Part shown: piece after piece, positions 1-16,104 of the stretch | Position numbering within the stretch: position 1 is the stretch's first letter | Layout of the letters: every line of letters starts with the position of its first letter | NCBI RefSeq assembly: GCF_002858765.1 | Contig: NZ_PJRP01000008.1 | Coordinates: 1-64,000 of the forward strand | Direction of reading: 5' to 3' | From: Cupriavidus pauculus | GTDB taxonomy: Bacteria > Pseudomonadota > Gammaproteobacteria > Burkholderiales > Burkholderiaceae | DNA length: 64,000 nucleotides | Translations under genes and position numbers: made by a program | Notes under the pieces: model-generated | The model's input: the letters and a program-made list of their open reading frames with translations, nothing else | The model's database searches: none | Told to the model about the DNA's origin: nothing

Positions 1-2
1 GC

Positions 3-128
3 GATGTGGTGATCAGCACCGTGCGCTTCCTGCAGACCAGCGCAGCGCAGATCGTGGCGGCGGTCAAAGCCGCCGGCGTCGAGCGCCTGCTGGTAGTGGG
101 CGGCGCAGGCAGCCTTTACGTGGCACCG
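3..128 (+). pseudogene. Internal fragment of an NAD(P)-binding oxidoreductase, cut at a sequence junction
   Basis: The plus-strand frame from base 3 reads DVVISTVRFLQTSAAQ and then a segment containing VERLLVVGGAGSLYVAP. This looks like the Rossmann-fold NAD(P)-binding oxidoreductases of the NmrA/YwnB type, where the LVVGGAGSLxVAPG motif is typical. The likeness stops at about base 128. The frame stays open to 305, but the later residues are arginine-rich antisense of the ketosynthase on the other strand. The 5' part lies outside the window and the 3' part is missing, so this is a broken gene or a join artefact. The family call rests on one motif block and is moderate. Confidence 0.5.
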
Positions 129-738
129 TGTCGAACACGGCGGCCTCGGTGGCGTCGAGTTCTTCGGCGCCGCCCGCCAGCATGGCCACCTGCCGGCCCG
201 TGGCGATGGTCTCGTAGGCGTAGCCGATGCCGTGGCTACCCGACGTGCAGGCGCTCGACGTGGTCAGGATGCGCCCGGTCGTACCAAAGAAAAGCCCGAT
301 ATTGACGGCCGTGGTGTGGGCCATCATGCGAATGTAGGTCGTGGCGTTGACGCCCTCGGTCGTGCGGTCGCTCATCATGCGCGCGAAGTCCTGCGCGGCC
401 GAAGGCGTGCCGGCCGACGAACCGTATGCCACGCCCATCTGCCCACCCTTGACCAGCGGATGACCGGTCAGCCCGGCATCGGCCAGGGCAGCCTCGCTGG
501 CCAGCACGGCCATCTGCGACACCCGGCCCATCGTGCGCATGAGCTTGCGCGTGTAGTGCGGCGGCAGCGTGAACGGGGGGACCGGCGCGCCAAGCTGGGT
601 GTTCAGGCCGCGAATACCCGCCCAGGCGTCCATGCGCACGACGGCATTGCGGCCGCCGGCCAGGTGCCGGCGCACCGTCCCCCAGTCGTTGCCCAGCGCG
701 CTGACGGCGCCCATGCCCGTCACAACCACCCGCTTCAT
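64..738 (-). CDS. Beta-ketoacyl-ACP synthase (ApeR-like), C-terminal half missing
   Basis: A FabF-like ketosynthase that should extend the polyene chain by Claisen condensation. It starts MKRVVVTGMGAVSALGN and carries the active-site cysteine at about residue 164 in SSACTSGSHG. Recognisable sequence ends at about residue 204 (AAVFDT, near base 127). The frame then runs 20 unrelated residues into the junction and stops at 64. A complete enzyme has about 400 residues and two catalytic histidines in its C-terminal half; both are absent here, so this copy should be inactive. The start codon overlaps the ketoreductase stop by 4 bases. It is the distal gene of the operon, in the place of ApeR in the E. 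coli aryl-polyene cluster. Confidence 0.8.
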   Translation of the reverse strand: MKRVVVTGMGAVSALGNDWGTVRRHLAGGRNAVVRMDAWAGIRGLNTQLGAPVPPFTLPPHYTRKLMRTMGRVSQMAVLASEAALADAGLTGHPLVKGGQMGVAYGSSAGTPSAAQDFARMMSDRTTEGVNATTYIRMMAHTTAVNIGLFFGTTGRILTTSSACTSGSHGIGYAYETIATGRQVAMLAGGAEELDATEAAVFDTVPRKGCLRRPLPAGARRRRL

Positions 739-1466
739 CCGAACATGCCCCCGTTGACCGATATCACCTGCCGCGTAATGTAACCGGCATCGGCCGATAG
801 CAGGAAGGCCACCGTTGCAGCTACCTCATCCGGGGTACCCAGGCGCCGGGCGGGAATGATCTTCAGCGCTTCTTCGCGCACGTGGGCCTCGACCATCTCG
901 GTATCGATCAGCCCGGGTGCCACGCAATTGACCGTGATCTGCCGCTTGGCCAGTTCGATCGCCAGTGCCTTGGTGGCGCCGATGATGCCGGCCTTGGCCG
1001 CGCTGTAGTTGGCCTGGCCCCGGTTGCCGACGATGCCCGACACCGACGACAGCGTCACGATGCGCCCCGGCCGGCGGCGCTGCACCATCGGCATCACCAC
1101 GGGATTGAGCACGTTGTAGAAGGCGTCGAGGTTGGTATGCACCACCTCGTCCCATTCCTCGCCGGTCATGGCCGGGAAGGCGGCGTCGCGTGCCAGGCCG
1201 GCATTGCACACCACCCCGTAATAGCAGCCGTGCTGCTCGATGTCGGCCAGCAGCGCATCGGCCGTGGCCTGGCGCTGGCTCACGTCGAAGGCCAGCACAC
1301 GGGCATTGCGGCCGAACGCGCGCACGGCGTCGGCCACGGATTCGGCTTCGGCGCGGCTGGCACGACAATGCACCACCACGTCGTAGCCATCGCGCGCCAG
1401 GCGCAAGGCAATGGCCCGGCCGATGCCACGCGACGCGCCCGTCACGAGCACGGTCTGGTTCGTCAT
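735..1466 (-). CDS. 3-oxoacyl-ACP reductase, FabG-like SDR (ApeQ-like)
   Basis: A 243-residue short-chain dehydrogenase, expected to reduce the 3-ketoacyl-ACP intermediate with NADPH during polyene chain growth. The N-terminus has the TGASRGIG nucleotide-binding motif at about residues 10-17. The catalytic Ser-Tyr-Lys set is visible in LSSVSGIVGNRG followed by YSAAK. Length and ending (SVNGGMFG) are usual for FabG. Its ATG overlaps the dehydratase stop by 4 bases and its stop overlaps the next ketosynthase start, so the three genes are translationally coupled. FabG paralogs are hard to tell apart by sequence; the role comes from the cluster. Confidence 0.9.
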   Translation of the reverse strand: MTNQTVLVTGASRGIGRAIALRLARDGYDVVVHCRASRAEAESVADAVRAFGRNARVLAFDVSQRQATADALLADIEQHGCYYGVVCNAGLARDAAFPAMTGEEWDEVVHTNLDAFYNVLNPVVMPMVQRRRPGRIVTLSSVSGIVGNRGQANYSAAKAGIIGATKALAIELAKRQITVNCVAPGLIDTEMVEAHVREEALKIIPARRLGTPDEVAATVAFLLSADAGYITRQVISVNGGMFG

Positions 1467-1960
1467 GTCTGCTGTCCTTCGAGGAAGACCCGCGCATCGG
1501 CGGGCACAAAAACGGAAACCGTGGCGCGTGCCACTTCCCTGCCGTCCTGCGTCAGCGTGCAGGCGAACATCGACAGGGCGCCGTCGGCCGCCACTTCGCC
1601 GGCCATCTCAAGCTGCACGCGGATCGTCAACACGCTGCCGGCCGCAAACGCCGGCACATCGCTCACGTAGCGCCGCGTGCCGAGCAGGAATCCGGGCACG
1701 GGCGAGCGACCTGCTTCGCGTGCCTGCATGCCGGCCCATGCCGCGATGGTCTGCGCCATGTACTCGACGCCGATCCATGCCGGCATGCCGGCATCGTCCA
1801 CGAACAACTGCGTCGGCCGCACGGTGGCCCGGGCCACGCCATGCGTGGCATCGGCCTCCAGCAGTTCGTCGATCAGACGCATGGCGCCCGCGTGAGGCAC
1901 CAGTTCGCCAACGGGCGGCAGCGGGTTCCGTGCAGTCGATAACGGATCGGCGGCAGTCAT
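1463..1960 (-). CDS. Hotdog-fold 3-hydroxyacyl-ACP dehydratase (ApeP-like)
   Basis: A 165-residue hotdog protein that probably removes water from the 3-hydroxyacyl-ACP to set each double bond of the polyene. Motifs include LVPHAGAMRLIDELLEAD near the N-terminus and AWIGVEYMAQTIAAWAG in the central helix, as in the ApeP/FabZ-like dehydratases of aryl-polyene clusters. The ATG at 1960 is preferred because residues before it in the same open frame are arginine-rich antisense sequence. Its stop overlaps the FabG-like start (ATGA), and it begins 3 bases after the upstream ketosynthase stop. Confidence 0.85.
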   Translation of the reverse strand: MTAADPLSTARNPLPPVGELVPHAGAMRLIDELLEADATHGVARATVRPTQLFVDDAGMPAWIGVEYMAQTIAAWAGMQAREAGRSPVPGFLLGTRRYVSDVPAFAAGSVLTIRVQLEMAGEVAADGALSMFACTLTQDGREVARATVSVFVPADARVFLEGQQT

Positions 1961-1962
1961 CT

Positions 1963-3153
1963 TTAGCCCTCGCTCATGACCAGCACGCAGTTGCTGCCGC
2001 CAAAGGCGAACGAGTTGCTCATGGCATGGCGCACCGGGCGACCCAGCGACTCGTCGGCGCCCACCACATGCAGCGGCGCGATATCGGGGTCGAGCGCGCC
2101 GTCCCACCAGTGCGCGGGCAGCCGGCCGCGCGGATTGCCGGTCAGCGTCAGGTACAGCAGCGCGGCCTCCACGGCCCCGGCCGCGCCCAGCGTGTGGCCG
2201 GTCTGCGGCTTGGTCGAGCTGACCGGAATATCCGCGCCGAACAGATCGGCCACGGCACGCGCCTCCATGGCGTCGTTCTGCTCGGTGGCCGTGCCGTGCA
2301 GGTTCAGGTAGTCGATGTCGCCCGGCTGCAGCCGCGCACGGGCCAGCGCCTGCTGCATCGCCGCACGGGCCCCGGCGCCCGTGGGGTCTGGCGCCGAAAT
2401 ATGATGGGCGTCGCCGGTTTCGCCCCAGCCGCTCAACCGTACCGGCCCGGGCTCGCGCGACATCAGGAACAGCGCCGCCCCTTCGCCCAGATTGATGCCC
2501 TGGCGATGTGCCGACAGCGGGTTGCAGCGCGCGGCGCTGACGGCCTCCAGCGCGCGGAACCCGGCAATCGTGAACGTGCAGAGCGTATCCACGCCACCGG
2601 CCACGGCTACGTCGACCACGCCCAGTTCCAGCAGCCGCGCCGCGGCGCTCAGCGACTTGGCGCTGGACGAGCACGCCGTGGAAATCGTATACGCCGGCCC
2701 TGCCGTGCCCAGCCGGCGTGCCAGGTAGCGCGCCGGAGAATCGAGTTCCTGCTGGCTGTAGTGGAAGCCCGCAGGAAACGCACCGGTGGCGGCACGGGCC
2801 CGCACCGCCAGTTCCCCTTCATGGATGCCCGACGTGCTGGTACCGAGCACGATGGCCACGCGCGTCGGGCCTGCCCGCGCGATGGCTGCGTCGACGGCGG
2901 CACGCAGCGGTGCCAGCGTGCGCTCCAGCACCGCGTTGTTGCGGCTGGCCTGCGACGGCGGCGTATCGGGCGGCAGGTCCGACACATCGACGGCTTCGGC
3001 CAGCACGCCCAGATGCAGCGCCGTGCCGGGCGTGTAGAGATCGGTGCTGGCGCCGCCAGAGGGGCCGTCGCTGCGCCAGAGCGCGGCCCGCACGGCATCG
3101 TTGCCGCTGCCCAGCGCGCACAGCACGTTCATGTCGTGCAGGTACACCGTCAT
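1963..3153 (-). CDS. Beta-ketoacyl-ACP synthase (ApeO-like), complete
   Basis: A 396-residue ketosynthase with a complete catalytic triad: Cys161 in STACSSSAK, His286 in LHGTATEQND and His320 in TGHTLGAAG. It should condense malonyl-ACP with the growing chain. It is the intact one of the two elongating ketosynthases in the cluster, so if the truncation of the distal ketosynthase is real, this is the only one left. It overlaps the DUF3261 gene by 4 bases. Residues 107-114 (TSTSGIHE) are characteristic of the aryl-polyene ketosynthase group rather than housekeeping FabF. Confidence 0.9.
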   Translation of the reverse strand: MTVYLHDMNVLCALGSGNDAVRAALWRSDGPSGGASTDLYTPGTALHLGVLAEAVDVSDLPPDTPPSQASRNNAVLERTLAPLRAAVDAAIARAGPTRVAIVLGTSTSGIHEGELAVRARAATGAFPAGFHYSQQELDSPARYLARRLGTAGPAYTISTACSSSAKSLSAAARLLELGVVDVAVAGGVDTLCTFTIAGFRALEAVSAARCNPLSAHRQGINLGEGAALFLMSREPGPVRLSGWGETGDAHHISAPDPTGAGARAAMQQALARARLQPGDIDYLNLHGTATEQNDAMEARAVADLFGADIPVSSTKPQTGHTLGAAGAVEAALLYLTLTGNPRGRLPAHWWDGALDPDIAPLHVVGADESLGRPVRHAMSNSFAFGGSNCVLVMSEG

Positions 3154-3752
3154 CTCGCACTCCCGTTGTCACGCAAGGTACGAATGGTCAGCCGATAGCC
3201 GTCGCGCCGCTGGGTGAACAGCGTCGTGGCAGCATCGGGATATCGGATTTCCGCCACCACCTCGGTGCCGGCACGCAACTGTCGCACACCGTCGGCGGTA
3301 TCCACCCGCCATCCAGCCGGCAGCGCGGCCTGGATCGCCGCCAGCGGCCAGAGCGACAGTTGCATGTCGCTCAGGATACGCTCGGGTTTCAACTCGGGTG
3401 GCGCCCACGGCGACCGCATCACGCGCAGGTCGTGGCCGTCCCAGTCGATGCGCGCCAGCACCTGGTTGCCCGCCATCGCCGCCAGCCGCGTGTGCGCCGC
3501 ATCGGCTTCCAGCAGCGCCAGCATGTCGCGCGTCTGCTCGCCCTGTGGCGACGGATATTGCACCGTGATCTGCTGCTCCAGGCGCAGCGTGCGGCCCAGC
3601 GAGGCCGGCGACAGCCGCAGCAGCGGTGTATCTGCGGGATTCACCGCCCCGGCAGGGTTGGATGCCCCGGTCGTCGCGCAGCCGGCCACGCCCGCAGCCA
3701 GCACGCACGCGGCCATCAGCGACAGCAGGGAGACCGGGGTCAGGCGCCGCAA
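3150..3752 (-). CDS. DUF3261 lipoprotein of the aryl-polyene cluster (ApeN-like)
   Basis: Predicted outer-membrane lipoprotein of about 200 residues; DUF3261 proteins are regular members of aryl-polyene clusters and probably help place the lipid in the outer membrane. The start chosen is TTG at 3752, with GGAG just upstream. It gives a good lipoprotein signal: basic MRRLTPVSLL, hydrophobic stretch, then a VAGC lipobox. The next ATG, at 3716, would lack the basic n-region. The start lies inside the end of the halogenase-like gene (13-base overlap) and the stop overlaps the ketosynthase start. The open frame extends further upstream but is antisense noise there. Confidence 0.75.
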   Translation of the reverse strand: MRRLTPVSLLSLMAACVLAAGVAGCATTGASNPAGAVNPADTPLLRLSPASLGRTLRLEQQITVQYPSPQGEQTRDMLALLEADAAHTRLAAMAGNQVLARIDWDGHDLRVMRSPWAPPELKPERILSDMQLSLWPLAAIQAALPAGWRVDTADGVRQLRAGTEVVAEIRYPDAATTLFTQRRDGYRLTIRTLRDNGSAR

Positions 3753-4972
3753 AGCTGCTCCACGACGCCAAGGCGCCGCCGCGCATCGGCCACGAACGGG
3801 TTGGACGTATCCCAGGCATAGCCGGCCAGGATCGACGAAATCATGCCGCGGATCTCGGCCGGCGAGTCGGGATGGAACAGCACGCGCTGGAAGCGTCCTT
3901 CGTACCACGCCTCGACAAACACGCGGAAACAGTCGACGCCAGCCTTCAGCGGCTTGGCGAAGTCCGCTTCCCAGTCGACCGTCTCGCCGGCCAGCTGGCG
4001 CACCAGGCAGGCGGCGGCCAGGCTGGCCGACTTGAACGCGATGGTCACGCCCGACGAAAACACGGGGTCCAGGAACTCGCCCGCGTTGCCAAGCAGCGCA
4101 TAGCCGTTGCCCCACAGTGAACTGACATTGGCCGCGTAGCCCGCGATCTGGCGCGCCGGGGTGTCCCACTGCGCGTTCTCGAGCAGCGCGGCCAGCCCCG
4201 GTTCCTCGTTGACCAGCGCCTGCAGCTTCGTCATCTCGTCGCCGTCGTACTGGTCGAGGAACGTCTTCTCGGCCACGACGCCAAGCGAACAGCGGCCATT
4301 GGAAAACGGGATCGTCCAGTACCAGACATCGTCATGCTCGGGATGCACGCCCACCCGGATCTTGTTGCGGTCGAACGTGCCGGCCGGAATGCCATCGGCC
4401 ACGTGCGTGAAGATGGCAGCCCGCACCGGGAAGTTCGACGGCGATTCGAGCTTGAGCAGTCGCGGCAGGATGCGCCCGAAGCCGGAAGCATCGAGCAGGA
4501 ACTTCGCCTGCACGGCGTAGCGTTCGCCATCGTCGCCGCAAACCGTCACCACCGGCTGCGCACCGCTGACATCAACGGCCTCCACCACATGGCGGAAGCG
4601 CACTTCGGCGCCCTGCTTCTGGGCCTCGCGAATCAGCACGTCGTCGAAATGCGCGCGCTGCACCTGGTACGTGGTGCCCCAGCCGGGCGAGAATTTCTCG
4701 CGGAAGTCGAAGTCGGTGTAGCGGTCGCCGCGCGCGAACGCCGCGCCGTTCTTGTACTGGAAGCCCGCTTCCACCACGGCCTGCAGCATGCCGGCCTCTT
4801 CGATATAGGCCATGCTTTGCGGCAGCAGGCTTTCGCCAATCGAGAAGCGCGGGAAGGTTTCCTTTTCCAGCACCAGCACGCCGATGCCGTGCCGGCGCAG
4901 CAGCCCGGCAGCCACGGAGCCGGCCGGGCCGGCCCCCACGATCACGACTTCGGCTTGTTCGGTCTTCATCAA
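3740..4972 (-). CDS. Flavin-dependent halogenase-like FAD oxidoreductase of the pigment cluster
   Basis: A 410-residue FAD enzyme of the tryptophan-halogenase superfamily. The FAD-binding GAGPAGS lies at residues 13-19. Two signatures of flavin halogenases are exact: WYWTIP at 217-222 (WxWxIP) and FLDPVFSSG (FxxPxxSxG) in the C-terminal half. A lysine in QYKNGAAF near residue 74 is at about the place of the catalytic lysine. Xanthomonadins are brominated aryl polyenes, so a halogenation role on an ACP-bound aryl polyene is plausible. Related proteins in such clusters are usually annotated only as FAD-dependent oxidoreductases, and another oxidative role is possible. It sits between the MMPL exporter and the DUF3261 gene, a place with no counterpart in the E. 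coli cluster. Confidence 0.8.
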   Translation of the reverse strand: MMKTEQAEVVIVGAGPAGSVAAGLLRRHGIGVLVLEKETFPRFSIGESLLPQSMAYIEEAGMLQAVVEAGFQYKNGAAFARGDRYTDFDFREKFSPGWGTTYQVQRAHFDDVLIREAQKQGAEVRFRHVVEAVDVSGAQPVVTVCGDDGERYAVQAKFLLDASGFGRILPRLLKLESPSNFPVRAAIFTHVADGIPAGTFDRNKIRVGVHPEHDDVWYWTIPFSNGRCSLGVVAEKTFLDQYDGDEMTKLQALVNEEPGLAALLENAQWDTPARQIAGYAANVSSLWGNGYALLGNAGEFLDPVFSSGVTIAFKSASLAAACLVRQLAGETVDWEADFAKPLKAGVDCFRVFVEAWYEGRFQRVLFHPDSPAEIRGMISSILAGYAWDTSNPFVADARRRLGVVEQLCGA

Positions 4973-4993: not shown

Positions 4994-7405
4994 CTATCGG
5001 GCGGCGGGTCTGAACCATGGCGACAGCACCCAGACCGCGCCCACGCCCGACAGCATCGTCATGCCGAACGCGTGCAGCGCCGGCGTGGACGACAGCGCCA
5101 GCAACCCGAACGCCAGCAGCGTGCTGGCCGCGCCCAGGACGATGGCCGTCCACGACACGCCATCGCCAGGATGTTCGAGCAAGAAAATGCCGTAGTCGAC
5201 GCCAACGCCCAGCAGCAGCGCCAGCGCCAGAATCGAGAACAGTTGCAGCGGCACGTGCAGCCAGCCCAGCACGGCCACACTGAACGCCGCCGCCAGCAGC
5301 GTCGGGGCCAGCGCGCGCCAGCCGGACAGCCCGTAGCGCCACGCCAGCAGCAGCCCCACCACGCCGGCGCCGGCCAGCAGCAGCCAGCTCATCAGCACGC
5401 GGTAGTGATGCAGCAGCGACGAAAAATCGGCCACGCGGTCCACCCATTCGGCGCCGGGCACCTGGCGCACCGTGGCGGCGATGGCGGGAATCTCCGACAC
5501 ATTGTCCAGGCCGCGCAGCAGCATCACGCTGGCGTAGCCGTGGCCCTCGCGATCCAGCCACAGGTGGCGCAGCGTGTCGGACACGGGATTGGCCAGCCAG
5601 GCCTGCAGCGTCAGCCCATCGCCGGCTGGCGCGGCCACGGGCGCGGCAATCGTGCCGCCCAGCGTCCTGGCCACCCGTTCGCGCACCGCCGCCTCCTGGC
5701 GGTCGGCCAGCGCCGCGTCGGCACGCTGCCGGGCCGCTGAGGGCACCCAGTCCGAGATCGCCACGAATCCGCCGAACGCATGGCGATCACGCGCGCCGGC
5801 CAGGCTTGCCTTGACCGCTTCCTCGCGTGCCAGTACCTCGTCGGGCGTGGCGCCGCGCACCAGCACGAACTGTGCAGGGCTGGGCGTGCCCAGCAGCCGG
5901 CCAATGGTGCGTTGTGCCTCTATCAGCGCCGGCGGCGAACTCTGCAGCTGGCGCACGTCATCGACCACGCGCACCTGCCACACCCCGCCCACGATAAACA
6001 GCGCCAGCAGGCCCAGCGCCACCCAGGTGCGGCGATCGTTGCGCACCTGCGGCCAGCGCGCCAGGCTATCGGCCAGCCATGTGGACAGCCGGGTCTGGCG
6101 CGGCGTGCCGCGATCCAGCAGCGGAAACCAGAACGCCACGGTCAGGAAGGCCCCGGTCAGCCCCACCGCCGAAAACAGTGCCATCTGCCGCAGGCCGGGG
6201 AACGGTGCGATGCCAAGGGCCAGATACGCCATCACGCTGGTCAGCAGCGCCAACGACAGGCCAGGCAGCAGGAATCGCATCACCGACGGCGGCGTGGCGC
6301 GCGGCATGGCCTGGCGCGTGACAAAGTAATGGATGCCGAAATCCTCCGCCACGCCCATCAGGCTGGCGCCGAACACCAGCGCAATCAGGTGCACGCGGTC
6401 GAACACCACGGCGGTGGCGGAAATGGCCATGGCCGTGCCGATCAGCAGCGACAGGCCCACCAGCAGGATGGGTCGCAGCGAGCGGAAAGCCATCCACACC
6501 AGCAACAGCACCGCCGCCAGCGAGCCCCAGCCGATGACGTTCATTTCCCAGTTGGCCTGCGACGCCGCTGCCTCGGCGTGCAGCGGAATGCCGGCCATGA
6601 TCACGCGCACGGCGCTGTCGCGCCCTGGCCCGCCCTGTGCTTCGCCTTGTGCCCCGCCTTGTGCCCCATCCCGCGCGGCCGCTTCGCCCTTGCCAAGCAG
6701 GTCGCCGTAGTCGGTGTTGCCGTTCGCGGAAAAGCCCGACTTGGCCGTGCGGAACGTCAGCACGATCCAGTCCTTGCCGTCGCCGGTCACCGTCGCCATG
6801 CCGTCGCGCTCGCGCACCCGCGTAGCCGCCGCACGGTCAAGCCACCACTGCTGCCACAGGCCCAGCGGATCGGCCGCCCATTCGGTGAGCTGGGGGCCCA
6901 TCGAGAACTGGTAAAGCCGCGTCACGGCCTGCTGGGCCAGCGCATCGGGGCTTTCGGAAGACAACTGCTGGCGCTGCGCGTCGGTCAGCAGCCGGTCTCG
7001 CCAAGGGCGATAGAACGCCAGCGCCGCGTCGAAATTGAAAGCGCCGAGCTTGTCCTGCGGTTGCAGCAGCGCGTTGCCCGGCCCCACGGCCTGGCGGAAG
7101 CGCTCGGCGGCGGCGCGTGTGCGGGCCCAGTCGTCGGCGCCGACCAGCACCACCACCTCGCGCGACACGCCTTCGCCAAGCTGCCGCAGCACGCGATCCG
7201 CCGTGGCGGTGCGCGCGCTGGTCGGCAACAGCGCCATCACGTCGGTATCGAGCCGCGACGCGCGCCAGAACTGGAACTGATGCACCGCCACGGCGATCAC
7301 CAGCAACAGCCACGCGATAGCCAGCACGCGGTCTCGCCGCGTGAGCCCACCCTGCATCGCGAGACCGCCGGCCGCATTACTCAAAGCGCTGCTCCTCGGC
7401 GGCAT
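4994..7405 (-). CDS. MMPL/RND-type exporter (ApeM-like)
   Basis: A protein of about 800 residues with the RND/MMPL layout: one N-terminal membrane helix (RVLAIAWLLLVIAVAV), a large periplasmic domain, a five-helix block around VLLLVWMAF to FWFPLL, a second periplasmic domain and a final helix block. It is expected to move the finished aryl-polyene lipid out of the inner membrane together with the LolA-like protein. The start at 7405 overlaps the lolA-like gene by 29 bases. ATG at 7357 (MQGGLTRRDR) fits the family better, but neither has a strong ribosome site. A short in-frame repeat, AQGGAQGEAQGGPG, lies in the first periplasmic domain. Confidence 0.85.
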   Translation of the reverse strand: MPPRSSALSNAAGGLAMQGGLTRRDRVLAIAWLLLVIAVAVHQFQFWRASRLDTDVMALLPTSARTATADRVLRQLGEGVSREVVVLVGADDWARTRAAAERFRQAVGPGNALLQPQDKLGAFNFDAALAFYRPWRDRLLTDAQRQQLSSESPDALAQQAVTRLYQFSMGPQLTEWAADPLGLWQQWWLDRAAATRVRERDGMATVTGDGKDWIVLTFRTAKSGFSANGNTDYGDLLGKGEAAARDGAQGGAQGEAQGGPGRDSAVRVIMAGIPLHAEAAASQANWEMNVIGWGSLAAVLLLVWMAFRSLRPILLVGLSLLIGTAMAISATAVVFDRVHLIALVFGASLMGVAEDFGIHYFVTRQAMPRATPPSVMRFLLPGLSLALLTSVMAYLALGIAPFPGLRQMALFSAVGLTGAFLTVAFWFPLLDRGTPRQTRLSTWLADSLARWPQVRNDRRTWVALGLLALFIVGGVWQVRVVDDVRQLQSSPPALIEAQRTIGRLLGTPSPAQFVLVRGATPDEVLAREEAVKASLAGARDRHAFGGFVAISDWVPSAARQRADAALADRQEAAVRERVARTLGGTIAAPVAAPAGDGLTLQAWLANPVSDTLRHLWLDREGHGYASVMLLRGLDNVSEIPAIAATVRQVPGAEWVDRVADFSSLLHHYRVLMSWLLLAGAGVVGLLLAWRYGLSGWRALAPTLLAAAFSVAVLGWLHVPLQLFSILALALLLGVGVDYGIFLLEHPGDGVSWTAIVLGAASTLLAFGLLALSSTPALHAFGMTMLSGVGAVWVLSPWFRPAAR

Positions 7406-8021
7406 CGAGCCGGTTCGCGGCCACAGGGTTGATCATCTTCACCACCGTGCTGTCGCCGCCGGCTTCCTCCAGCTTTACGTCGCGTACGTACTGGTCGCCC
7501 GACAGCTCGATCCGGGCGAACGCGCGCCGCGTGCCGGCATCGGTCGGCGTCAGGGTCAGCGTCCAACCCTTGCTGCCAACGAGCTTGCCGGTCACCGCGA
7601 ACCGGCCCGACAAACTACGGAAATCGCCGCGCAGCATGGCAATCATCGATTCCCCCACCACGCGCATGGCGGGCTGGGCATCGGCACGCATCTGCTGCTG
7701 CACCTTGCCGTCGGCGCCACGCATGACCAGCTTTTCGGGCGTGACCAGCAGGCTCGACGGCACGGGATCGCGCGTCGTCCACACCACGCCCCGGCCACGG
7801 GCGACGACAAAGTCGCCGTGCGATACCAGCGGATTGCTGAAGCCGGCCAGCCGGCGCGTCTGCTCGAACTGGCCACGGATCACCGGCGCATCGGTCAGCC
7901 GCGCGGCCACCGCCGCCGGCAAGTCTTCTGCATGCAGGGAGGGCACGGCCAGGCCACCCAGAGTGGTAAGGGCGGCAAGGGTCCGCAGCAGGCTGCGGCG
8001 CATCATGTCGGGACGCATCAT
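7377..8021 (-). CDS. LolA-like periplasmic lipid carrier (ApeL-like)
   Basis: A 214-residue exported protein related to the outer-membrane lipoprotein carrier LolA. The signal peptide is clear: MMRPDMMRRSLLRTL, hydrophobic LAALTTLGGLAV, then cleavage after SLHA. The mature part begins EDLPAAVAARLTDAPVIRG and contains GQFEQTRRLAGF, as in LolA-family proteins. In aryl-polyene clusters this protein is thought to ferry the lipid across the periplasm. The ATG at 8021 overlaps the thioesterase stop as ATGA. The frame is open further upstream, but without a signal peptide and in antisense-like sequence. Confidence 0.85.
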   Translation of the reverse strand: MMRPDMMRRSLLRTLAALTTLGGLAVPSLHAEDLPAAVAARLTDAPVIRGQFEQTRRLAGFSNPLVSHGDFVVARGRGVVWTTRDPVPSSLLVTPEKLVMRGADGKVQQQMRADAQPAMRVVGESMIAMLRGDFRSLSGRFAVTGKLVGSKGWTLTLTPTDAGTRRAFARIELSGDQYVRDVKLEEAGGDSTVVKMINPVAANRLDAAEEQRFE

Positions 8022-8434
8022 CCCTGGACTCCAAGTCGTTGCAACAGGATGGGCGGGTTGGCGTACAGCATCTCCTGCGTGGCCATGTCCACGGCCACCT
8101 GAATCGAATAGCCCCGGGTCAGTCGCTGGCCGCTGGACGCGTCGCGCGCCTCGTAATGGATCTTGAGCCGGTGCTCCCATTCGGCAAACGTGGCGCGCAC
8201 GATCACCGACTGGCCATAGCGCAACGGCCGCACGTACTTGACGCGGATGTCGATGATGGGCCACGCATAGCCCGATTCGCGCATCTGCGGGTAGTCGTAG
8301 TCGATCTGCTGCAGCAGCGCGCAGCGCGCGAGTTCAAAGTAGCGCAGGTAGTTGCCATGCCAGACCACGTCCATCGGATCGAGGTCGTGGAAAGCCGGCG
8401 TCAGTTCGATTTCATGACTGAGGATGTTCGGCAT
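8018..8434 (-). CDS. 4-hydroxybenzoyl-CoA-type thioesterase (ApeK-like)
   Basis: A 138-residue hotdog thioesterase. The segment HDLDPMDVVWHGNYLRYFE matches the 4HBT active-site region, with the catalytic Asp in the DPMDVVWHGN block. It may release or edit acyl groups in the polyene pathway. The start at 8434 (MPNILSHEIEL) is chosen because upstream residues in the frame resemble antisense of the acyltransferase. It overlaps the acyltransferase end by 23 bases, and its own stop overlaps the LolA-like start. Confidence 0.85.
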   Translation of the reverse strand: MPNILSHEIELTPAFHDLDPMDVVWHGNYLRYFELARCALLQQIDYDYPQMRESGYAWPIIDIRVKYVRPLRYGQSVIVRATFAEWEHRLKIHYEARDASSGQRLTRGYSIQVAVDMATQEMLYANPPILLQRLGVQG

Positions 8435-9485
8435 CTTGGTCGCGCCCGGTCTGCGAGGGGTCCAGCCGGCCGACGCTGATCGGATCCCGGGCCCAGAAGT
8501 CGTAGAAATTGAACCAGTCGTACGGCGAGCGCACCACCAGCAGTTCCAGCCAGGCCACATAGCGCTGCGCCAGTTCCACTAGCCGCGCCTCGCGCGCGGC
8601 ACGCGGCAGCGCCACGCTGCGCGCCAGTTCGGTAAAGCGGATCACGTGGCCATTGCCGGCGCGCACGCAGCCCATGGCGAACAGCGGGCACTTGAGCAGC
8701 GCCGCCAGCACGTAGGGCCCCACCGGAAAACGGGCGGGCGCGCCCAGGAACGGCACGCTCACGGCCCGCCCGCCATGCGCGGGCGCCCGGTCGCCGGCAA
8801 TCGCCACGAACTCGCCGGCCTGCACGCGGGCCGACAGTTCGAGCGCCGTGGCCGGCGAGATATCGTCGATCTGGTACAGCTGCAGCATCGCGTCGGGGTC
8901 GAGCCGGGCCAGGACGCGATTGAACTGCTCCGCGTGGGCCGAATGCACCAGCACCGTCAGCCGCAACCCGTCGATGCGGTTGGCCATGGCACGGCACAGC
9001 TCCAGGCAACCCACGTGGGCAGTCATGATGATGCCGCCCTGCCCGCTGGCAATCTGCCTGAGCAGCACGTCGCCGCCTTCCTTGGACACGTGCTCGAACC
9101 GGTAGCGGCCGCCGATGGCCAGCAGCTTGTCGAGGATCGTGTCGCCGAACGAGAACAGGTGATTCAGCGAATGGCGCCACGTGGGCCGCGTGCCGATGGC
9201 GCCGGTGGCCGCCTCCAGCCGGCGCAGATAGTCCGTCGAGGAACGGCGCGCCAGCGGATAGGCCAGCCAGTAATACGCCACCACCGGCACCATCACGATC
9301 CGGAACAGCACCCGGCCGAACACCCGGTACAGCGCGTACAGCAGCCAGATGCCCCAGACGCAGGTGACCTCGCCGATGGCGCTCCAGTGCTGCGAGCGCC
9401 GCGACGGTCCGGATGGCTCCGAAGGCCCGGACGGTCCCGAGGGCCCCGGCGGGGACGAGGAAGAATCGGGTTGGACGATACTCAT
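8412..9485 (-). CDS. LpxL/HtrB-family lipid acyltransferase (C-terminal half of ApeJ-like function)
   Basis: A 357-residue acyltransferase of the lysophospholipid/lipid A late-acyltransferase family, with a membrane helix near residues 45-75. The AHVGCLELCR segment supplies the HxxxxE-type active-site motif. It probably adds an acyl group to the sugar- or glycerol-linked polyene anchor. The N-terminus has a low-complexity PSG repeat (SSSPPGPSGPSGPSEPSGPS) encoded by short tandem repeats near 9410-9470. In E. coli ApeJ, as I recall it, glycosyltransferase and acyltransferase are one protein; here they are two genes with an ATGA overlap. Confidence 0.85.
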   Translation of the reverse strand: MSIVQPDSSSSPPGPSGPSGPSEPSGPSRRSQHWSAIGEVTCVWGIWLLYALYRVFGRVLFRIVMVPVVAYYWLAYPLARRSSTDYLRRLEAATGAIGTRPTWRHSLNHLFSFGDTILDKLLAIGGRYRFEHVSKEGGDVLLRQIASGQGGIIMTAHVGCLELCRAMANRIDGLRLTVLVHSAHAEQFNRVLARLDPDAMLQLYQIDDISPATALELSARVQAGEFVAIAGDRAPAHGGRAVSVPFLGAPARFPVGPYVLAALLKCPLFAMGCVRAGNGHVIRFTELARSVALPRAAREARLVELAQRYVAWLELLVVRSPYDWFNFYDFWARDPISVGRLDPSQTGRDQDAEHPQS

Positions 9486-10234
9486 GCCGTCCTCACCTTG
9501 CGCCACAGCAGCGACGGCGCACGCCAGATCATGCCCACGAACAGCCGCGTCAGCATGCCGGCGATCAGCAGGTTGTCCTGCAGCATGCGGAAGTGCGACA
9601 CGCCGTCGCTGGGGTAAGTGACCCGCGTGGGCACGTTGACCACCGGCGCCCCGCGCCAGTACAGACGCACGATCACCTCGGTATCGAACTCCATGTGGTG
9701 GCCCAGGCGGCTGTCGGCCATCAGCTTCGTCACGGCGGGCAGCGGATACACGCGCAGGCCACACATCGAATCGCGGATATCGAACGACAGCGTGATCAGC
9801 CACACCATCACGTGGGTCAGGTAGCGGAAATAGAACCGGTGCGTGGGCACGGTGTCGTCGTACACCGGATAGCCCGCGATTACCGCGTCCGGGTGCGACT
9901 GCGCCAGATCCAGGAAGCGCGGAACGTCGTTGGCGTCGTGCTGGCCGTCGGCGTCGATCTGCAGCGCGTGCGTATAGCCGAGCCGGGCCGCCGTGCGGAA
10001 GCCGGTCATCATCGCGGCGCCCTTGCCCTGGTTCTGCGGCAGCCGCTCCAGCAGCACGCGCTCCGGATGGGCGTCGGCAATCTGGCGCAGCACCGCCTCG
10101 CACGCGGGCCCGCTGCCATCGTCCACCAGCAGGCAGGGCCACGGATGGCGCAGGATCGCCTCGACCATGGCGCCAATGGCATGCTCATGGTCGTAGACCG
10201 GAACCAGCACGATGGGACGGAATACTGCGCTCAT
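9482..10234 (-). CDS. Family 2 glycosyltransferase of the aryl-polyene cluster
   Basis: A 250-residue GT2 enzyme. It opens with PIVLVPVYDHEHAIGAMVEA. The nucleotide-sugar site is visible as LLVDDGSG and the metal-binding DxD as QIDADGQHD. It likely glycosylates the polyene lipid or its anchor on the cytoplasmic side. It is coupled to both neighbours by 4-base overlaps: the ligase stop at 10231 and the acyltransferase start at 9485. Upstream in-frame residues are antisense noise, so the ATG at 10234 is used. Confidence 0.88.
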   Translation of the reverse strand: MSAVFRPIVLVPVYDHEHAIGAMVEAILRHPWPCLLVDDGSGPACEAVLRQIADAHPERVLLERLPQNQGKGAAMMTGFRTAARLGYTHALQIDADGQHDANDVPRFLDLAQSHPDAVIAGYPVYDDTVPTHRFYFRYLTHVMVWLITLSFDIRDSMCGLRVYPLPAVTKLMADSRLGHHMEFDTEVIVRLYWRGAPVVNVPTRVTYPSDGVSHFRMLQDNLLIAGMLTRLFVGMIWRAPSLLWRKVRTA

Positions 10235-11961
10235 GAAGCGTCTGGATGAAATACGATCTTGCCGCTCGCGTGCGGGCCGGCATCGGAGGTCAATCGGAAA
10301 CCGAGCACGCATTCGGCCGGCTGCCAGGCCAGCGCGAGCCTGACGCGGGTGCCGGGGCGGATGACGGCCTGGAACTTGAGCATGTCGAGCCGCGCGAAAC
10401 GCTCGCGCGGCGGAATGGCAAGCCGCTCGGGCGCCAGCGCCATGACCCAGTCCACCTGGGCCACGCCAGGCACCACCGGCATGCCGGGAAAGTGACCGTC
10501 GAACACGGCCAGGTCGTCGGCGATGTCCAGATCGGCCTGCGCGGAGGTGGCATCCGCCGCCACCCAGCGCACCGCCGGCACGGTATGACGGAACAGTTCG
10601 CGCAGCATGGCATCGGTGGTCTTGCCCTGCGCATTGGCGGGCAACTCGCGCGGAAACACCCAGCGGCGCGGCAGGGCCAGCGGATCGACGGCCGGGGCCA
10701 GGCACTGGCGCAACGCGCGCACCACGGCGGGCCGCCCTGCCCCGTCCAGCAGGCGCTGACCGGCATCGTCCAGCACCACCACGGCGCCGACGCGCTCGCC
10801 CACAGCCGTGGCGATCATCGCCACGCGGGCCTCGCGCACCAGCGGCGACGTGGCCAGGCGCTGTTCGACGGCCGTCAGCGAAATGCGTTTTTCCTCGATC
10901 TTGACGATGCGGTCGGCCCGGCCGGCCAGCACGAAGCCGCCGTCCTGTGTGGGCAGCGCGCGATCGGCGCAGACGTACCAGTCGTCATCGGCAAGGTGCG
11001 CGGAGCGTACGGCAAGGTGGCCGTCCTGCAGTCGCCAGGCCACGTCAGGCAGCGGCGTCCAGGCATCGTTGTGAAGCTGGCGCTGCCGCCACGCGATGCC
11101 GCCGGTTTCGGAACTGCCGAACACCTCGATGGGCGACACGCCAGCCAGGCGCAACACGTCTGCCGACGCCTCGGCTGGCAACGGTCCGCCCGACGAGAAC
11201 ACCGCGCGCAGGACGCCCCGCGTGGCCGTCCAGTCGAGCCCGGCTGGCATCCGCCGGAGATGGGCAGGACTGCTGACCAGGATGGCCGGGCGCGGATCGG
11301 CGGCGCACTGGCTCACCAGTTCCTCCAGAAACGCCAGGCGGCTCTGCGGGATGGCGCGGCCAGCGGCGAGTGGCCACAGGATCGTGAACAGCAAGCCATA
11401 GATATGCTGGTGCGACACCGTGGTCAGTATCCGCACGTCGGCGGGCAGCCGCGCGCCGAACGCCTGTTGCAGCGCGCGCAGCTCGGCATCGAGCTGGGCG
11501 AGCCGCTTCGGCAGCGCCACGGGTGCGCCAGTGGAGCCCGACGTGAACAGCGTGACCCAGGTATCGTCCGGGGACAGCGGGGGCCAGTCGAAGGCGGGTT
11601 CGGCACCCGGCAAGCCGGCCTCGGCCTGCAGGCCTTCGGGCAGGTCGCCAGCCAGGCCGTCGACGGTGTCGCGCAGGGCCGCGAGGGTCTCCGCGCGATT
11701 GTCGCCTGGCAACACCACTTGCTTGCCGGCATGCCATGCGCCTAGCAGCGCAGCCGCAAATGGCTCAGGCTGGTCCAGGTACAGCGCCCAGCGCTGCCCG
11801 GCCTGCGCCGCGAACGCCTGGCGCCAGCCTGCCACGCGGGCCACAAAGTCTGCCGCCCCGGCCTGCGTGGCCAGCCGCGACATCGCGCCTGTCACGCCTG
11901 TCACGCCTGCCACGCCGCTCACGCCACTCACGCCGCCCGGACCCATCGCGCGCTCAACCAT
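10231..11961 (-). CDS. AMP-dependent acyl-ACP/CoA ligase fused to a hotdog dehydratase domain (ApeH-ApeI fusion)
   Basis: A 576-residue fusion. The first 450 residues are an ANL adenylating enzyme with LFTSGSTGAPVALPKRL (ATP loop) and GRADRIVKIEEKRIS (C-terminal hinge). It should activate the aryl starter acid for loading on the ACP. The last 120 residues form an ApeI/FabA-like hotdog domain with VFDGHFPGMPVVPGVAQVDW. In E. coli these are separate proteins, ApeH and ApeI. The N-terminus holds a short repeat, GVSGVSGVAGVTGVTG, from tandem DNA repeats at 11888-11938. The ATG at 11961 overlaps the membrane-protein gene by 8 bases. Confidence 0.88.
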   Translation of the reverse strand: MVERAMGPGGVSGVSGVAGVTGVTGAMSRLATQAGAADFVARVAGWRQAFAAQAGQRWALYLDQPEPFAAALLGAWHAGKQVVLPGDNRAETLAALRDTVDGLAGDLPEGLQAEAGLPGAEPAFDWPPLSPDDTWVTLFTSGSTGAPVALPKRLAQLDAELRALQQAFGARLPADVRILTTVSHQHIYGLLFTILWPLAAGRAIPQSRLAFLEELVSQCAADPRPAILVSSPAHLRRMPAGLDWTATRGVLRAVFSSGGPLPAEASADVLRLAGVSPIEVFGSSETGGIAWRQRQLHNDAWTPLPDVAWRLQDGHLAVRSAHLADDDWYVCADRALPTQDGGFVLAGRADRIVKIEEKRISLTAVEQRLATSPLVREARVAMIATAVGERVGAVVVLDDAGQRLLDGAGRPAVVRALRQCLAPAVDPLALPRRWVFPRELPANAQGKTTDAMLRELFRHTVPAVRWVAADATSAQADLDIADDLAVFDGHFPGMPVVPGVAQVDWVMALAPERLAIPPRERFARLDMLKFQAVIRPGTRVRLALAWQPAECVLGFRLTSDAGPHASGKIVFHPDAS

Positions 11962-12511
11962 GATGGCCCTCCGCATGACGGGCCCTGACGCGCTGGCGCA
12001 CCAGCCATTCGCCGGCAAACATCGCGCCGATCAGGCCATAGGCGATCGCCCCGTTATAGAGCGCCCAAACCCGGTCGCTCGCGGCAAACGCGGTGATGGC
12101 GGCCATCGTGCCATTGCAGACGAAGAACACGCACCAGGCCTGCGTCACCCGGCGCGTGTAGGCCACGCCGTGCGCAGGCAGGTCTGGCTCACGCAGGCGC
12201 GCCAGCCGCTCGACCAGCGTGGGGGGATAGGCCAGGCTCCAGCCAAACACGCCGAGCAGCGCCACGTTCACGAGTACGGGATAGATTTTCAAGGGCAATG
12301 CGTGATCGGAGACCAGCACCACGGCAGCCAGCAGACCCGCCAGCAAGGCCAGCGCACGCCAGCCGGCCTGGCGGCTGGTGGTGGCGCGCAGCAGCGCGAG
12401 CGCCAACAGCGCCAGCGCCATTACGCGCGGCGAGTAGTGCTGCAAGCCAAAATAGATCACGAGCGGGTATGCCATCGTCAGCAGCCCCAGGCCCCATTTG
12501 CGCCATGCCAT
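11954..12511 (-). CDS. COG4648-type integral membrane protein (ApeG-like)
   Basis: A 185-residue hydrophobic protein with about five or six membrane helices, for example LGLLTMAYPLVIYFGL, ALALLALALLRA and LALLAGLLAAVVLV, plus a final helix near GAIAYGLIGAMFAGEW. It belongs to the uncharacterised COG4648 group found in aryl-polyene clusters and is sometimes mis-annotated as a ketosynthase. Function is unknown; it may anchor the biosynthetic enzymes at the membrane. It ends HAEGHHG with 8 bases overlapping the ligase start. Confidence 0.8.
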   Translation of the reverse strand: MAWRKWGLGLLTMAYPLVIYFGLQHYSPRVMALALLALALLRATTSRQAGWRALALLAGLLAAVVLVSDHALPLKIYPVLVNVALLGVFGWSLAYPPTLVERLARLREPDLPAHGVAYTRRVTQAWCVFFVCNGTMAAITAFAASDRVWALYNGAIAYGLIGAMFAGEWLVRQRVRARHAEGHHG

Positions 12512-12523
12512 GCTGATCCGGTG

Positions 12524-12784
12524 TCAGGCGGTGGCCGCCGGTGAATCGATCAATTGCGCGAGCGTTTTCACCACATCTCCCACAGTTCTTACCGACTTGA
12601 ATTGTTCCGGTTTCAGGGGGTGGTCCAACATCGGTTTCAGTCTGACAAGCAGGTCTACCGCATCGATGCTGTCGATATCGAGATCGTCGTAGAGGCGAGC
12701 TTCGGGCGTGATCCGCCCGGGCGCGATCTCGAACATCTGCTCGAGCACCGCGGCCACGCGTGCAAGGATTTCATCGTGCGTCAT
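12524..12784 (-). CDS. Acyl carrier protein (ApeF-like)
   Basis: An 86-residue acyl carrier protein. The phosphopantetheine attachment serine is in DDLDIDSIDAVDLL. It should carry the growing aryl-polyene chain. The start at 12784 (MTHDEILARV) is used; nine more codons are open upstream but lack a better ribosome site. It is the second of two ACPs in the operon and is separated from the first by 47 bases. Confidence 0.9.
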   Translation of the reverse strand: MTHDEILARVAAVLEQMFEIAPGRITPEARLYDDLDIDSIDAVDLLVRLKPMLDHPLKPEQFKSVRTVGDVVKTLAQLIDSPAATA

Positions 12785-12831
12785 GATTCGCTCCGCATTC
12801 CCGTCATGCAAAGTGCCTGATGCGTCGCAAT

Positions 12832-13101
12832 TCAGCTTGCGGACTTGTCGCGTTGCGACGCCACATAGGCGGCCAGCGTGGCCACGCTGGCAAAGCGGGC
12901 GCGCATTTCTTCCTTGTCGCCCTTCATCGTGATGCCGTACTTCTTCTGCAGCGCGAGGCCAAGCTCCAGCGCATCGATCGAATCGAGGCCAAGTCCCTCG
13001 ACGAACAGCGGTGCCTCGGCATCGATATCGTCAGGCGCGATGTCTTCGAGCGACAACGACGCGATGATGAGTTCCTTGATTTCCTGTTCAAGCGCCTTCA
13101 C
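12832..13101 (-). CDS. Acyl carrier protein (ApeE-like)
   Basis: An 89-residue acyl carrier protein with the attachment serine in EGLGLDSIDALELGL. Two ACPs are the rule in aryl-polyene clusters, one probably dedicated to the starter and one to the growing chain. Its start overlaps the acyltransferase gene by 14 bases. Charge and length are normal (acidic N-terminal half, about 9.5 kDa). Confidence 0.92.
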   Translation of the reverse strand: MKALEQEIKELIIASLSLEDIAPDDIDAEAPLFVEGLGLDSIDALELGLALQKKYGITMKGDKEEMRARFASVATLAAYVASQRDKSAS

Positions 13102-13867
13102 GGCGGATCTCCCTCGTAAAAAAGTCGGATAGTGAGCGGTTCAGACGCCGCACCGCCTGCACGGCTTCGGTTTCAACGGGCATCCACGGTTCCACGCTGA
13201 CATCGGGATGGACATCGATCTCGTAGCAGGGCCGGCGGGCCGGCACGCGGTACCACTTGTCTCCTTTTGTCAGCGTAGGCGGTTCGCAGCGAATCACCAC
13301 AGGCGTCAGGTCAAAGCCACCCCGCACGGCCACGTTGGCGGCGCCGCGCTGCAACTGCAGCGGTTCGCCCGGCCGCGTGCGCGTGCCTTCCGGAAAAATG
13401 ATCAGGTTGCTGCCGGCGCGCAGCGACGCGATGCAGTCTTCCACCATCGCGACGCCCCCGGCGTCGTTGCGAATCCAGCCGGTGGCCGCCACGGCAGCAC
13501 CTGTAAACGGGTTGCGGGCCAGGTCGGCCTTGACCACGCAATCGGCGCCGCGCGTCAGCGTCATCAGGAACACGATGTCGATCAGCGACGGATGATTGGC
13601 CACGATCAGCAATCCGCCGCGCCGCAGCCGCTCGCCATTGCGCACGCGGTATTCGATGACGCCGAGACGGCACATCAGCCAGAGAAAGCCTGTGAGTGTG
13701 TAATGAATCACATTTCGGCACACGCGACGATGCGTATCGGCCGACCACGGCATCAGCGACAGAAGCGGAAACACCACCAGGCGGACCAGCAGTCCGCCAA
13801 TACCGAAAATGATGAAGCACAGCGCGGTGGCCAGTACCCGCCAGCCGCGTTCGATGCGGTCAGCCAT
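13088..13867 (-). CDS. 1-acylglycerol-3-phosphate acyltransferase-like protein (ApeD-like)
   Basis: A 259-residue PlsC-type acyltransferase. Motif I is NHPSLID (HxxxxD) and motif III is FPEGTRTRPG; an N-terminal membrane helix covers about residues 10-40. It may attach the polyene to a phospholipid-like or glycerol anchor. The ATG at 13867 (MADRIERGW) overlaps the upstream ketosynthase-like gene by 8 bases, which favours it over the longer open frame to 13900. Confidence 0.88.
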   Translation of the reverse strand: MADRIERGWRVLATALCFIIFGIGGLLVRLVVFPLLSLMPWSADTHRRVCRNVIHYTLTGFLWLMCRLGVIEYRVRNGERLRRGGLLIVANHPSLIDIVFLMTLTRGADCVVKADLARNPFTGAAVAATGWIRNDAGGVAMVEDCIASLRAGSNLIIFPEGTRTRPGEPLQLQRGAANVAVRGGFDLTPVVIRCEPPTLTKGDKWYRVPARRPCYEIDVHPDVSVEPWMPVETEAVQAVRRLNRSLSDFFTREIRREGA

Positions 13868-14618
13868 GTCGCTGCCACCTCCATGCGGCGTTCTCGCCAC
13901 AATGCAGCAACATTGGCTCGTCCGTCAGGACAAAGCGCAGCACGTCGAGGCTGTGCGGCAGCAAGGCAGGCGGGCGCGGGGCGTCCAGGCTGTCCGGCTC
14001 GATGATTTCCAGGCTGAAGGTCGGGTGGGTGCCGTCCGGCTTGCCAATGTGCCAGGCCCAGCCGAACAGGCATTGCGGCTCGTCGGCAAAATCCAGATAA
14101 GGGGCCGGGAGCGGCGTGTCATAGCAGACCACCAGCACCTCGTCAGCGCCCTCGCCCAGCAGCGCGCAGGCTTCGACCAGTGCGTTTTCGGTGGTATCCC
14201 GCCCGGCAGAGAGGGCCTGCATGTTCGAGGGATCGCGACGATCGATCGAGAACATGGCGCCGATGGCGTTGTGGACGGACAAGCCGAAGGCCGTCGGCGA
14301 CAGCGGCTGGCTATTGGCCAGTTCGCCGAGCATTTCGTAGGCCCGGTGGGAATCGCCGTGACGGGAGGCAAAGACGGCCGGCATGGCCTTCGGCTTCCCA
14401 GTTGCCTGGTCAACAGCGCCGATGTCGTAAGCCGGATGCAGCGCGGCGCGGCCGGTGACATTGACGCGACGGCGCAGCATGGGCGCCATCGCCGCCAGCG
14501 GGGGCAGGTCGGCCCCTTCTGGCAACCATGGCGCCTGGCTCCAGGCCTGCCAGTCGGCGGGGGTCTGCAATGCCGGCGCACAGGCGGCCCATGCGCGAAT
14601 GTCGAATTGAAGTGCCAT
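13860..14618 (-). CDS. Ketosynthase-like chain-length-factor protein (ApeC-like)
   Basis: A 252-residue protein of the beta-ketoacyl synthase N-terminal-like family, shorter than a full ketosynthase. It contains SPTAFGLSVHNAIGAMFSI, resembling the thiolase fold, but with no catalytic cysteine in the usual ACSS context. By analogy with E. coli ApeC, it probably pairs with another ketosynthase and tunes chain length. It is the first gene of the operon visible here; no ApeA- or ApeB-like methyltransferase gene lies upstream. The ATG at 14618 is preferred because upstream codons in the frame do not look like protein. Confidence 0.8.
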   Translation of the reverse strand: MALQFDIRAWAACAPALQTPADWQAWSQAPWLPEGADLPPLAAMAPMLRRRVNVTGRAALHPAYDIGAVDQATGKPKAMPAVFASRHGDSHRAYEMLGELANSQPLSPTAFGLSVHNAIGAMFSIDRRDPSNMQALSAGRDTTENALVEACALLGEGADEVLVVCYDTPLPAPYLDFADEPQCLFGWAWHIGKPDGTHPTFSLEIIEPDSLDAPRPPALLPHSLDVLRFVLTDEPMLLHCGENAAWRWQRHG

Positions 14619-14819
14619 GCCGTGCGCGTGGGGAAATAAGTGATCCAGTCTGCCGCCAGCATGCGATATGTGGGCGGCGACGCATTCTCCCATGCCACCG
14701 ATAGCGCTAGCTGTGCCAGAACGTAACTGGAATGCAAAATTGTAACAAGGCAGATGCAGCACTCGGCCGGATCTGCCCTGTCGTTTCCCCTACTACCGCA
14801 CGCGATGGCGGCCCGGCGT
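14619..14819. other. Intergenic region carrying the likely aryl-polyene operon promoter
   Basis: About 200 bases between fahA and the first pigment gene, both on the minus strand. The part nearest the pigment operon is locally AT-rich (TGTTACAATTTTGCATTCC on the minus strand, about 14725-14750). No convincing -35/-10 pair or terminator stands out. Confidence 0.4.
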
Positions 14820-16085: not shown

Positions 16086-16104
16086 TGTTCTGGAACTCCG
16101 GAAA

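Follow-up and report, generated by a model that had tools for sequence, protein, structure and literature searches.

We analyzed a 64,000-nucleotide stretch of Cupriavidus pauculus DNA (assembly GCF_002858765.1, contig NZ_PJRP01000008.1, positions 1 to 64,000; hereafter the window), which carries a gene of the flavin-dependent halogenase (FDH) family among the genes of an aryl-polyene (APE) pigment pathway. This FDH is not of the xanthomonadin type; it belongs to a widespread, uncharacterized lineage distinct from it. The open reading frame occupies 3740-4972 on the minus strand and has two candidate starts, TTG 4972 (410 aa) and ATG 4969 (409 aa). The ATG is preferred because of its better ribosome site (AGGAGAGGA upstream), so that the gene is 3740..4969. 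Counting from this ATG, the protein has GAGPAG (the FAD-binding GxGxxG) near its N-terminus, a lysine in GFQYKNGAAF (codon 4751..4753; residue 73, or 74 from TTG), WYWTIP (4307..4324), which agrees exactly with WxWxIP, and FLDPVFSSG (4049..4075), which agrees exactly with FxxPxxSxG. The Pfam profile Trp_halogenase (PF04820) scores 88.1 bits on it (E = 7.7e-25; cut-off 21). The assignment to the flavin halogenase family with both signature motifs, made in a first-pass annotation of the same sequence, therefore stands.

The FDH gene shares 4 bases with a DUF3261 protein gene (3150..3743) on one side; on the other, 21 bases separate it from the gene for a large membrane protein (4994..7405) that has no Pfam hit at E ≤ 0.001 and was called an MMPL-type exporter from its sequence and location. 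Downstream of the DUF3261 gene on the same minus strand, which all the genes of the operon share, are the second ketosynthase KS2 (1963..3153), an ApeP-like dehydratase (1463..1990), the 3-oxoacyl-ACP reductase KR (735..1466; ACP, acyl carrier protein), and the ketosynthase KSa (64..738; Pfam ketoacyl-synt over 190-738), whose frame breaks near the contig start. Upstream of the exporter gene are a LolA-like carrier (7377..8018), a 4HBT thioesterase (8018..8434), an acyltransferase-like protein named by place and relatives (8412..9482, start not fixed; no Pfam hit), a family 2 glycosyltransferase (9482..10234), an AMP-ligase fused to an ApeI-like dehydratase (10231..11883), a membrane protein conserved across APE operons (11954..12511; no Pfam hit), ACP 1 (12524..12811), ACP 2 (12832..13101), an acyltransferase (13088..13900), and a Ketoacyl-synt_2, chain-length-factor-like protein (CLF; 13860..14651); the starts of the thioesterase, glycosyltransferase, and AMP-ligase genes are inferred. 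Ketosynthase, CLF, KR, ApeI/ApeP-type dehydratases, ACPs, AMP-ligase, LolA, and thioesterase, by which an APE cluster is recognized, are all present. The neighborhood is thus a two-ketosynthase APE operon, in agreement with the earlier placement of the gene in an APE cluster. The further claim was that the gene has no counterpart in the E. coli APE operon; a nucleotide search of 20,395 E. coli records gave no FDH match at ~65-70% identity, remoter protein homologues being beyond its reach. The KSa frame is lost where the window begins at contig base 1 (window 1-190), perhaps an assembly-edge effect; in one related locus (L101) a phosphopantetheinyl transferase gene comes after the counterpart of KSa.

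We denoted the window-type lineage as FDH_A, the FDH of xanthomonadin-type clusters as FDH_B, and a further FDH-like lineage as FDH_C. At least 591 stretches of genome contigs matched the window FDH at E ≤ 1e-3, and the analysis was done on the best 80, the other 511 not being established as FDH_A. These best 80 of at least 591 relatives are 56-82% identical to the window FDH, the closest being from Cupriavidus (80-82%), and 73 of them have at least five APE genes in the stretch around the FDH. The other seven comprise three short contigs (L149, L154, and L159), three loci with KR only (L100, L102, and L134), and one with none (L151). In a plasmid collection, the FDHs of C. campinensis and C. 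metallidurans CH34 are 85.8% and 83.5% identical to the window's. We also inspected 40 further 20-kb stretches, which, like the 76 rows of the tree below, were hand-picked: FDH_A is found in 37, accompanied by at least four APE genes in 34 of the 37 (exceptions L059, L060, and L080), and the remaining three have a distant FDH, with APE genes in L076 and L077 and none in L078.

The association is also visible at the genome level. In a phylum sample of 398 genomes, FDH_A (48-100% identical) occurs in 47 and KS2 in 67, with both in 44, KS2 only in 23 (some of which may hold other cluster types), FDH_A only in three, and neither in 328. Among 120 Burkholderiaceae genomes, 42 have FDH_A, 38 have KS2, and 31 have both. 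In family f18 of the phylum sample, FDH_A is lacking in all 11 KS2-positive genomes. The KS2 cut-offs were set by eye (E ≤ 1e-84 in the phylum sample and ~E ≤ 1e-92 in the family sample). The FDH_A gene is tied to the two-ketosynthase APE type.

Several further copies are of note. An Acinetobacter baumannii record has a motif-intact copy in an APE operon, annotated as NAD(P)/FAD-dependent oxidoreductase (L257, 11932-13227). In two Neisseria gonorrhoeae records, an FDH_A-like copy is matched as two separate pieces, which in one of them (L259, 10001-11141) are in two frames; the 21 kb of L259 gave no match to any further APE gene. A copy in the Xanthomonadaceae genome G575 (L193) matches in two overlapping pieces and may be broken. 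Two Myxococcaceae loci, L103 and L112, hold FDH_A with APE genes at 73% and 68% identity; in the tree, L103 groups with proteobacterial copies (84/89), perhaps through horizontal transfer.

The presumed catalytic residues are strongly conserved. When 76 rows were aligned with MAFFT, the window lysine fell in one column with that of all seven solved chains included (3NIX, CndH, CmlS, Bmp2, Mpy16, ChlB4, and FasV), so the lysine noted in the first-pass annotation, which had named its absence as grounds for rejection, appears to occupy the catalytic place. The K, W, W, and I positions and FLDPxFSSG are invariant across 33 diverse sequences, the window's included; one of the 33, an FDH_A copy at L030 1480-2733, reads WYWMIH, with H replacing the P of WxWxIP. 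Among the best 80 of the at least 591 relatives, the K motif and WxWxIP are each present in 80 of 80 and FxxPxxSxG in 79. The dN/dS ratio against eight Cupriavidus copies, three of them outside any APE operon, is 0.14-0.27. An FDH-like protein at L078 1012-2712 has both motifs and N in the lysine column, the sole such row of the 76.

The first-pass annotation had also drawn a bridge from the brominated xanthomonadins to a halogenated pigment here, and this bridge finds no support as stated because the xanthomonadin FDH is of another lineage. In the phylogeny against characterized halogenases that it had proposed, FDH_A and 3NIX form one clade (42 rows, support 99/100) and FDH_B a separate one (21 rows, support 98/99), with the window FDH outside the latter. 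Long branches were flagged (the FDH_C rows, L077, L078, CndH, CmlS, FasV, and Bmp2), and our conclusions use the FDH_A and FDH_B clades only. Among 149 Xanthomonadaceae genomes, FDH_A occurs in 18, in one of them as two pieces, and another 74 give nothing closer than a 29-36% match. FDH_B is carried by the Xanthomonadaceae loci L206-L212, L217, and L225, with XanB2 adjoining in L206 and in the genome of L211; three of these (L211, L217, and L225) have in addition FDH_C, with the motif FLDPFYSPG. In L206, FDH_B is flanked by an ACP on one side and on the other by a XanB2-type chorismatase (PF21168, 5.6e-39), with the AMP-ligase next. This order agrees with that given for Xanthomonas in a figure legend of PMC3838355 (ACP, XanB1, XanB2, and AMP-ligase), by which FDH_B would be XanB1 and FDH_C Xanthomonas gene H. 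A pair of enzymes, FDH_B and FDH_C, would be in keeping with xanthomonadin I having two bromines.

We searched 20 picked genomes for XanB2 and found it in five (G512, G521, G474, G097, and G016), each time beside FDH_B. Three FDH_B genomes gave no XanB2 match (G061, G448, and G476), so the adjacency is 5/8 and not strict, and neither did the 12 searched genomes lacking FDH_B, the window's (G000) included. With ~32% identity, separate clades, and no XanB2 match, we rejected orthology between the window FDH and the xanthomonadin-type FDH.

FDH_A without a close two-ketosynthase operon was found in 11 of the 42 FDH_A-bearing Burkholderiaceae genomes, and we set aside the notion that these copies are orphans, since APE genes, or in one case a partial match to one, were found in all 11. 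In G015, APE genes surround FDH_A (L065), and in G052 a partial KS2 match lies ~5 kb away. In the other nine (G026, G045, G098, G034, G013, G105, G067, G096, and G043), FDH_A lies away from a close APE operon, and a second, divergent APE-type cluster (KS2 45-50% and CLF 26-31% identity) is present elsewhere, 0.78 Mb off in G026 and otherwise on a different contig. No FDH_B was found in the fetched 20-kb stretch around this second-type cluster in any of the nine. In seven of them FDH_A adjoins a ketoreductase that is 62-87% identical to the one in the window operon, and the second cluster has no ketoreductase match beyond one of 34% in G098; in G034 and G013, FDH_A has no ketoreductase partner and the second cluster has its own ketoreductase (50%). 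Such FDH_A-ketoreductase pairs kept apart from a second-type cluster are seen at L080, L226, and L231 and at L060 and L227-L229; C. alkaliphilus is among the species with this layout.

These observations suggest that at least two non-orthologous APE halogenase lineages are matched to two cluster types, and that FDH_A, with or without the ketoreductase, serves as a gap-filling module in trans and is a widespread halogenase class, a scheme that we advance tentatively, with a chance somewhat short of even. The ketoreductase pairing is weakened as a halogenase-specific feature because four Ralstonia-group genomes without FDH_A (G024, G058, G077, and G113) still keep the unlinked ketoreductase. A tight link is also weighed against by second-type clusters with neither FDH_A nor FDH_B (L241-L244, L247, L254, and L255; in L241 there is only a 25% FDH match). 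Other second-type clusters do carry FDH_B (L249-L253), and the fetched stretches of L245, L246, and L248 end inside the cluster.

The two cluster types also meet at one site. C. metallidurans CH34 has an APE gene order identical to the window's, adjoining hmgA and fahA, and in the window the fahA-hmgA site (14820-17433) is likewise next to the two-ketosynthase operon. In four genomes of the window's genus a second-type cluster lies beside fahA-hmgA instead (L232, L233, L236, and L241); genomes with this arrangement are G026, G045, and G098, which belong to the nine above, and G115, where FDH_A is absent. The site looks like one of cluster swap between the two APE types.

The AlphaFold2 model of the window FDH (32 sequences) has a mean pLDDT of 93.0 and a pTM of 0.91. 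Against solved chains, phmmer ranks 3NIX first (E = 2.9e-108), followed by CndH, Bmp2, Mpy16, ChlB4, FasV (solved chain 8zop), PltA, RadH, and CmlS (1.6e-41 to 6.6e-31) and by CtcP and PltM (about 3e-16 to 4e-14; PltM 2.5e-14). The first p-hydroxybenzoate hydroxylase, at 1.3e-7, is below every listed halogenase. Foldseek orders the solved relatives of the model as 3NIX, then ChlB4, PltA, and Mpy16. In the fold comparison of the model, 3NIX reaches Z = 55.2 (400 residues, 1.4 Å), followed by ChlB4 (44.4), PltA (44.1), Mpy16 (44.1), a Bmp2 mutant (43.2), FasV (43.0), Bmp2 (42.7), RadH (39.5), and CndH (38.7); CtcP and PltM are not among its best 50 rows. In the model, the window FDH has the halogenase fold, the wider fold being shared by hydroxylases.

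Taking these lines together, we consider it probable that the window FDH halogenates the 4-hydroxyphenyl head of the polyene while this is bound to a carrier. It would act as a two-component, FADH2-dependent enzyme that tailors the aryl head on one of the two ACPs of the operon, whose genes make an ACP-bound substrate possible. A cellular flavin reductase would supply FADH2, which would react with O2 to a flavin C4a-hydroperoxide; attack of a halide (Cl- or Br-) on the hydroperoxide would give HOX, which K73 would take up and direct onto the phenol ring; on a 4-hydroxybenzoate-derived head the likeliest site is ortho to the hydroxyl. The remaining enzymes of the operon would then complete and export the chain. 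The HOX-lysine mechanism follows the account in the review text of PMC10696468; for the window FDH, the halogenation itself, the halide, the reductase, the carrier-bound substrate, the ring position, and the timing are inferred. The window genome gave no XanB2 match and three chorismate-lyase family matches, which makes a 4-hydroxybenzoate head likely. One APE operon of Acinetobacter and one of Pseudoalteromonas carry an aromatic amino acid lyase and the window operon does not; two proteins encoded elsewhere in the window genome are 34-36% identical to this lyase, so a lyase-made head is also possible.

Several observations weigh against a halogenating role. The FDH is dispensable, 23 of the 67 KS2-positive genomes of the phylum sample being without FDH_A. 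Of 11 named relatives in plasmid records, 10 are annotated as NAD(P)/FAD-dependent oxidoreductase and one as tryptophan 7-halogenase. WxWxIP and FxxPxxSxG are present in 76 of 76 aligned rows, among them 3NIX, which was deposited as a flavoprotein/dehydrogenase, so the motifs by themselves do not establish what the enzyme catalyzes. In the fold comparison of the model, the halogenase CmlS (Z = 35.4) is about level with p-hydroxybenzoate hydroxylase (Z = 35.2), and in Foldseek neither CtcP nor PltM outscores the hydroxylase; the fold thus narrows the reaction without settling it. Arcuflavin of Azoarcus BH72 is given as C41H52O4, hence halogen-free, although arcA of its pathway is annotated as a halogenase (excerpted text of PMC3949708), and a title in the reference list of PMC8253772 mentions a Xanthomonas populi pigment that is not brominated. 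On the other side, the relevant passage of PMC3691225 reports neither a halogenase gene nor bromine in the pigment for Lysobacter enzymogenes and both for Xanthomonas. In the open-license PMC literature we found no paper on the product of the FDH_A lineage. The presence of the FDH gene allows for a halogenated pigment without proving one.

One way to reconcile strict conservation with an unhalogenated pigment such as arcuflavin is that the enzyme halogenates only with enough bromide, so that pigments from ordinary medium look unhalogenated. This would be a special case of the halogenase reading, with which its probability overlaps, and we regard it as a minority possibility. The degree of bromination does vary among Xanthomonas pigments, from zero to two Br, in the portion of PMC3691225 that treats them; however, our literature search turned up no halide-dependence data for the FDH_A lineage, and arcA is probably of the other lineage, FDH_B. 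Less probable still is that the protein has kept the halogenase fold and motifs but functions in vivo as a flavin-dependent oxidase or monooxygenase, whose reaction might be hydroxylation of the aryl head or of an intermediate carried by an ACP. The title of 3NIX, which names no activity, the halogen-free arcuflavin, and the standing of p-hydroxybenzoate hydroxylase beside CmlS, CtcP, and PltM in the structural comparisons would all accord with such a role. The near-invariance of the lysine and both motifs argues against it, as do the phmmer ranking, in which halogenases down to PltM precede the first hydroxylase, and the placing of ChlB4, PltA, Mpy16, Bmp2, FasV, RadH, and CndH above the hydroxylase in fold. 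That the FDH serves a non-APE pathway and merely hitch-hikes in the operon is very improbable: the 11 Burkholderiaceae genomes with FDH_A but no close KS2, and L151, whose 21 kb show none of the APE genes, could be read in this way, but the APE context found in all 11, with a second-type cluster showing no FDH_B in nine, speaks against it, as do the overlap of genes in the operon and the co-occurrence of FDH_A and KS2.

Published accounts place halogenase genes in APE clusters as early as 2013 (PMC3691225, legend of Fig. 5), and their co-occurrence as such is not new; what is new is the separation of the window FDH from the xanthomonadin type. Xanthomonadin is the halogenated APE case in the cited parts of the literature. 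If the two-ketosynthase-type FDH does halogenate the pigment, bacteria of soil, plants, and water would commonly make halogenated aryl polyenes, with halogenated 4-hydroxyphenyl polyenes in many species of Pseudomonas, Stenotrophomonas, Cupriavidus, Paraburkholderia, Shewanella, and the Vibrio group. If it does not, many genomes carry a halogenase look-alike that matches in every tested feature and has another role.

Among known systems, the nearest solved relative is 3NIX, a structural genomics chain from Cytophaga hutchinsonii that shares with the window FDH 40-42% identity, all motifs, and a clade, but names no activity in its title. PltA, Mpy16, Bmp2, CndH, and ChlB4 share the fold over most of the chain at 25-30% identity, and CndH, Mpy16, Bmp2, and ChlB4 also have the lysine column and both motifs. 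The substrates of PltA, Mpy16, Bmp2, and CndH are carrier-bound; these four and ChlB4 differ from the window FDH in substrate and gene cluster. FDH_B resembles the window FDH in its motifs, its lysine, and its location in an APE-type cluster, and differs in having its own clade and in belonging to the second APE cluster type. The arcA gene of Azoarcus BH72 is, like the window FDH, an annotated halogenase in an APE pathway, but in the gene order given in the excerpts of PMC3949708 it adjoins the XanB2-type arcB, unlike the window FDH. In G474, XanB2 directly follows FDH_B just as arcB lies by arcA, and on this gene order arcA probably belongs to the FDH_B lineage.

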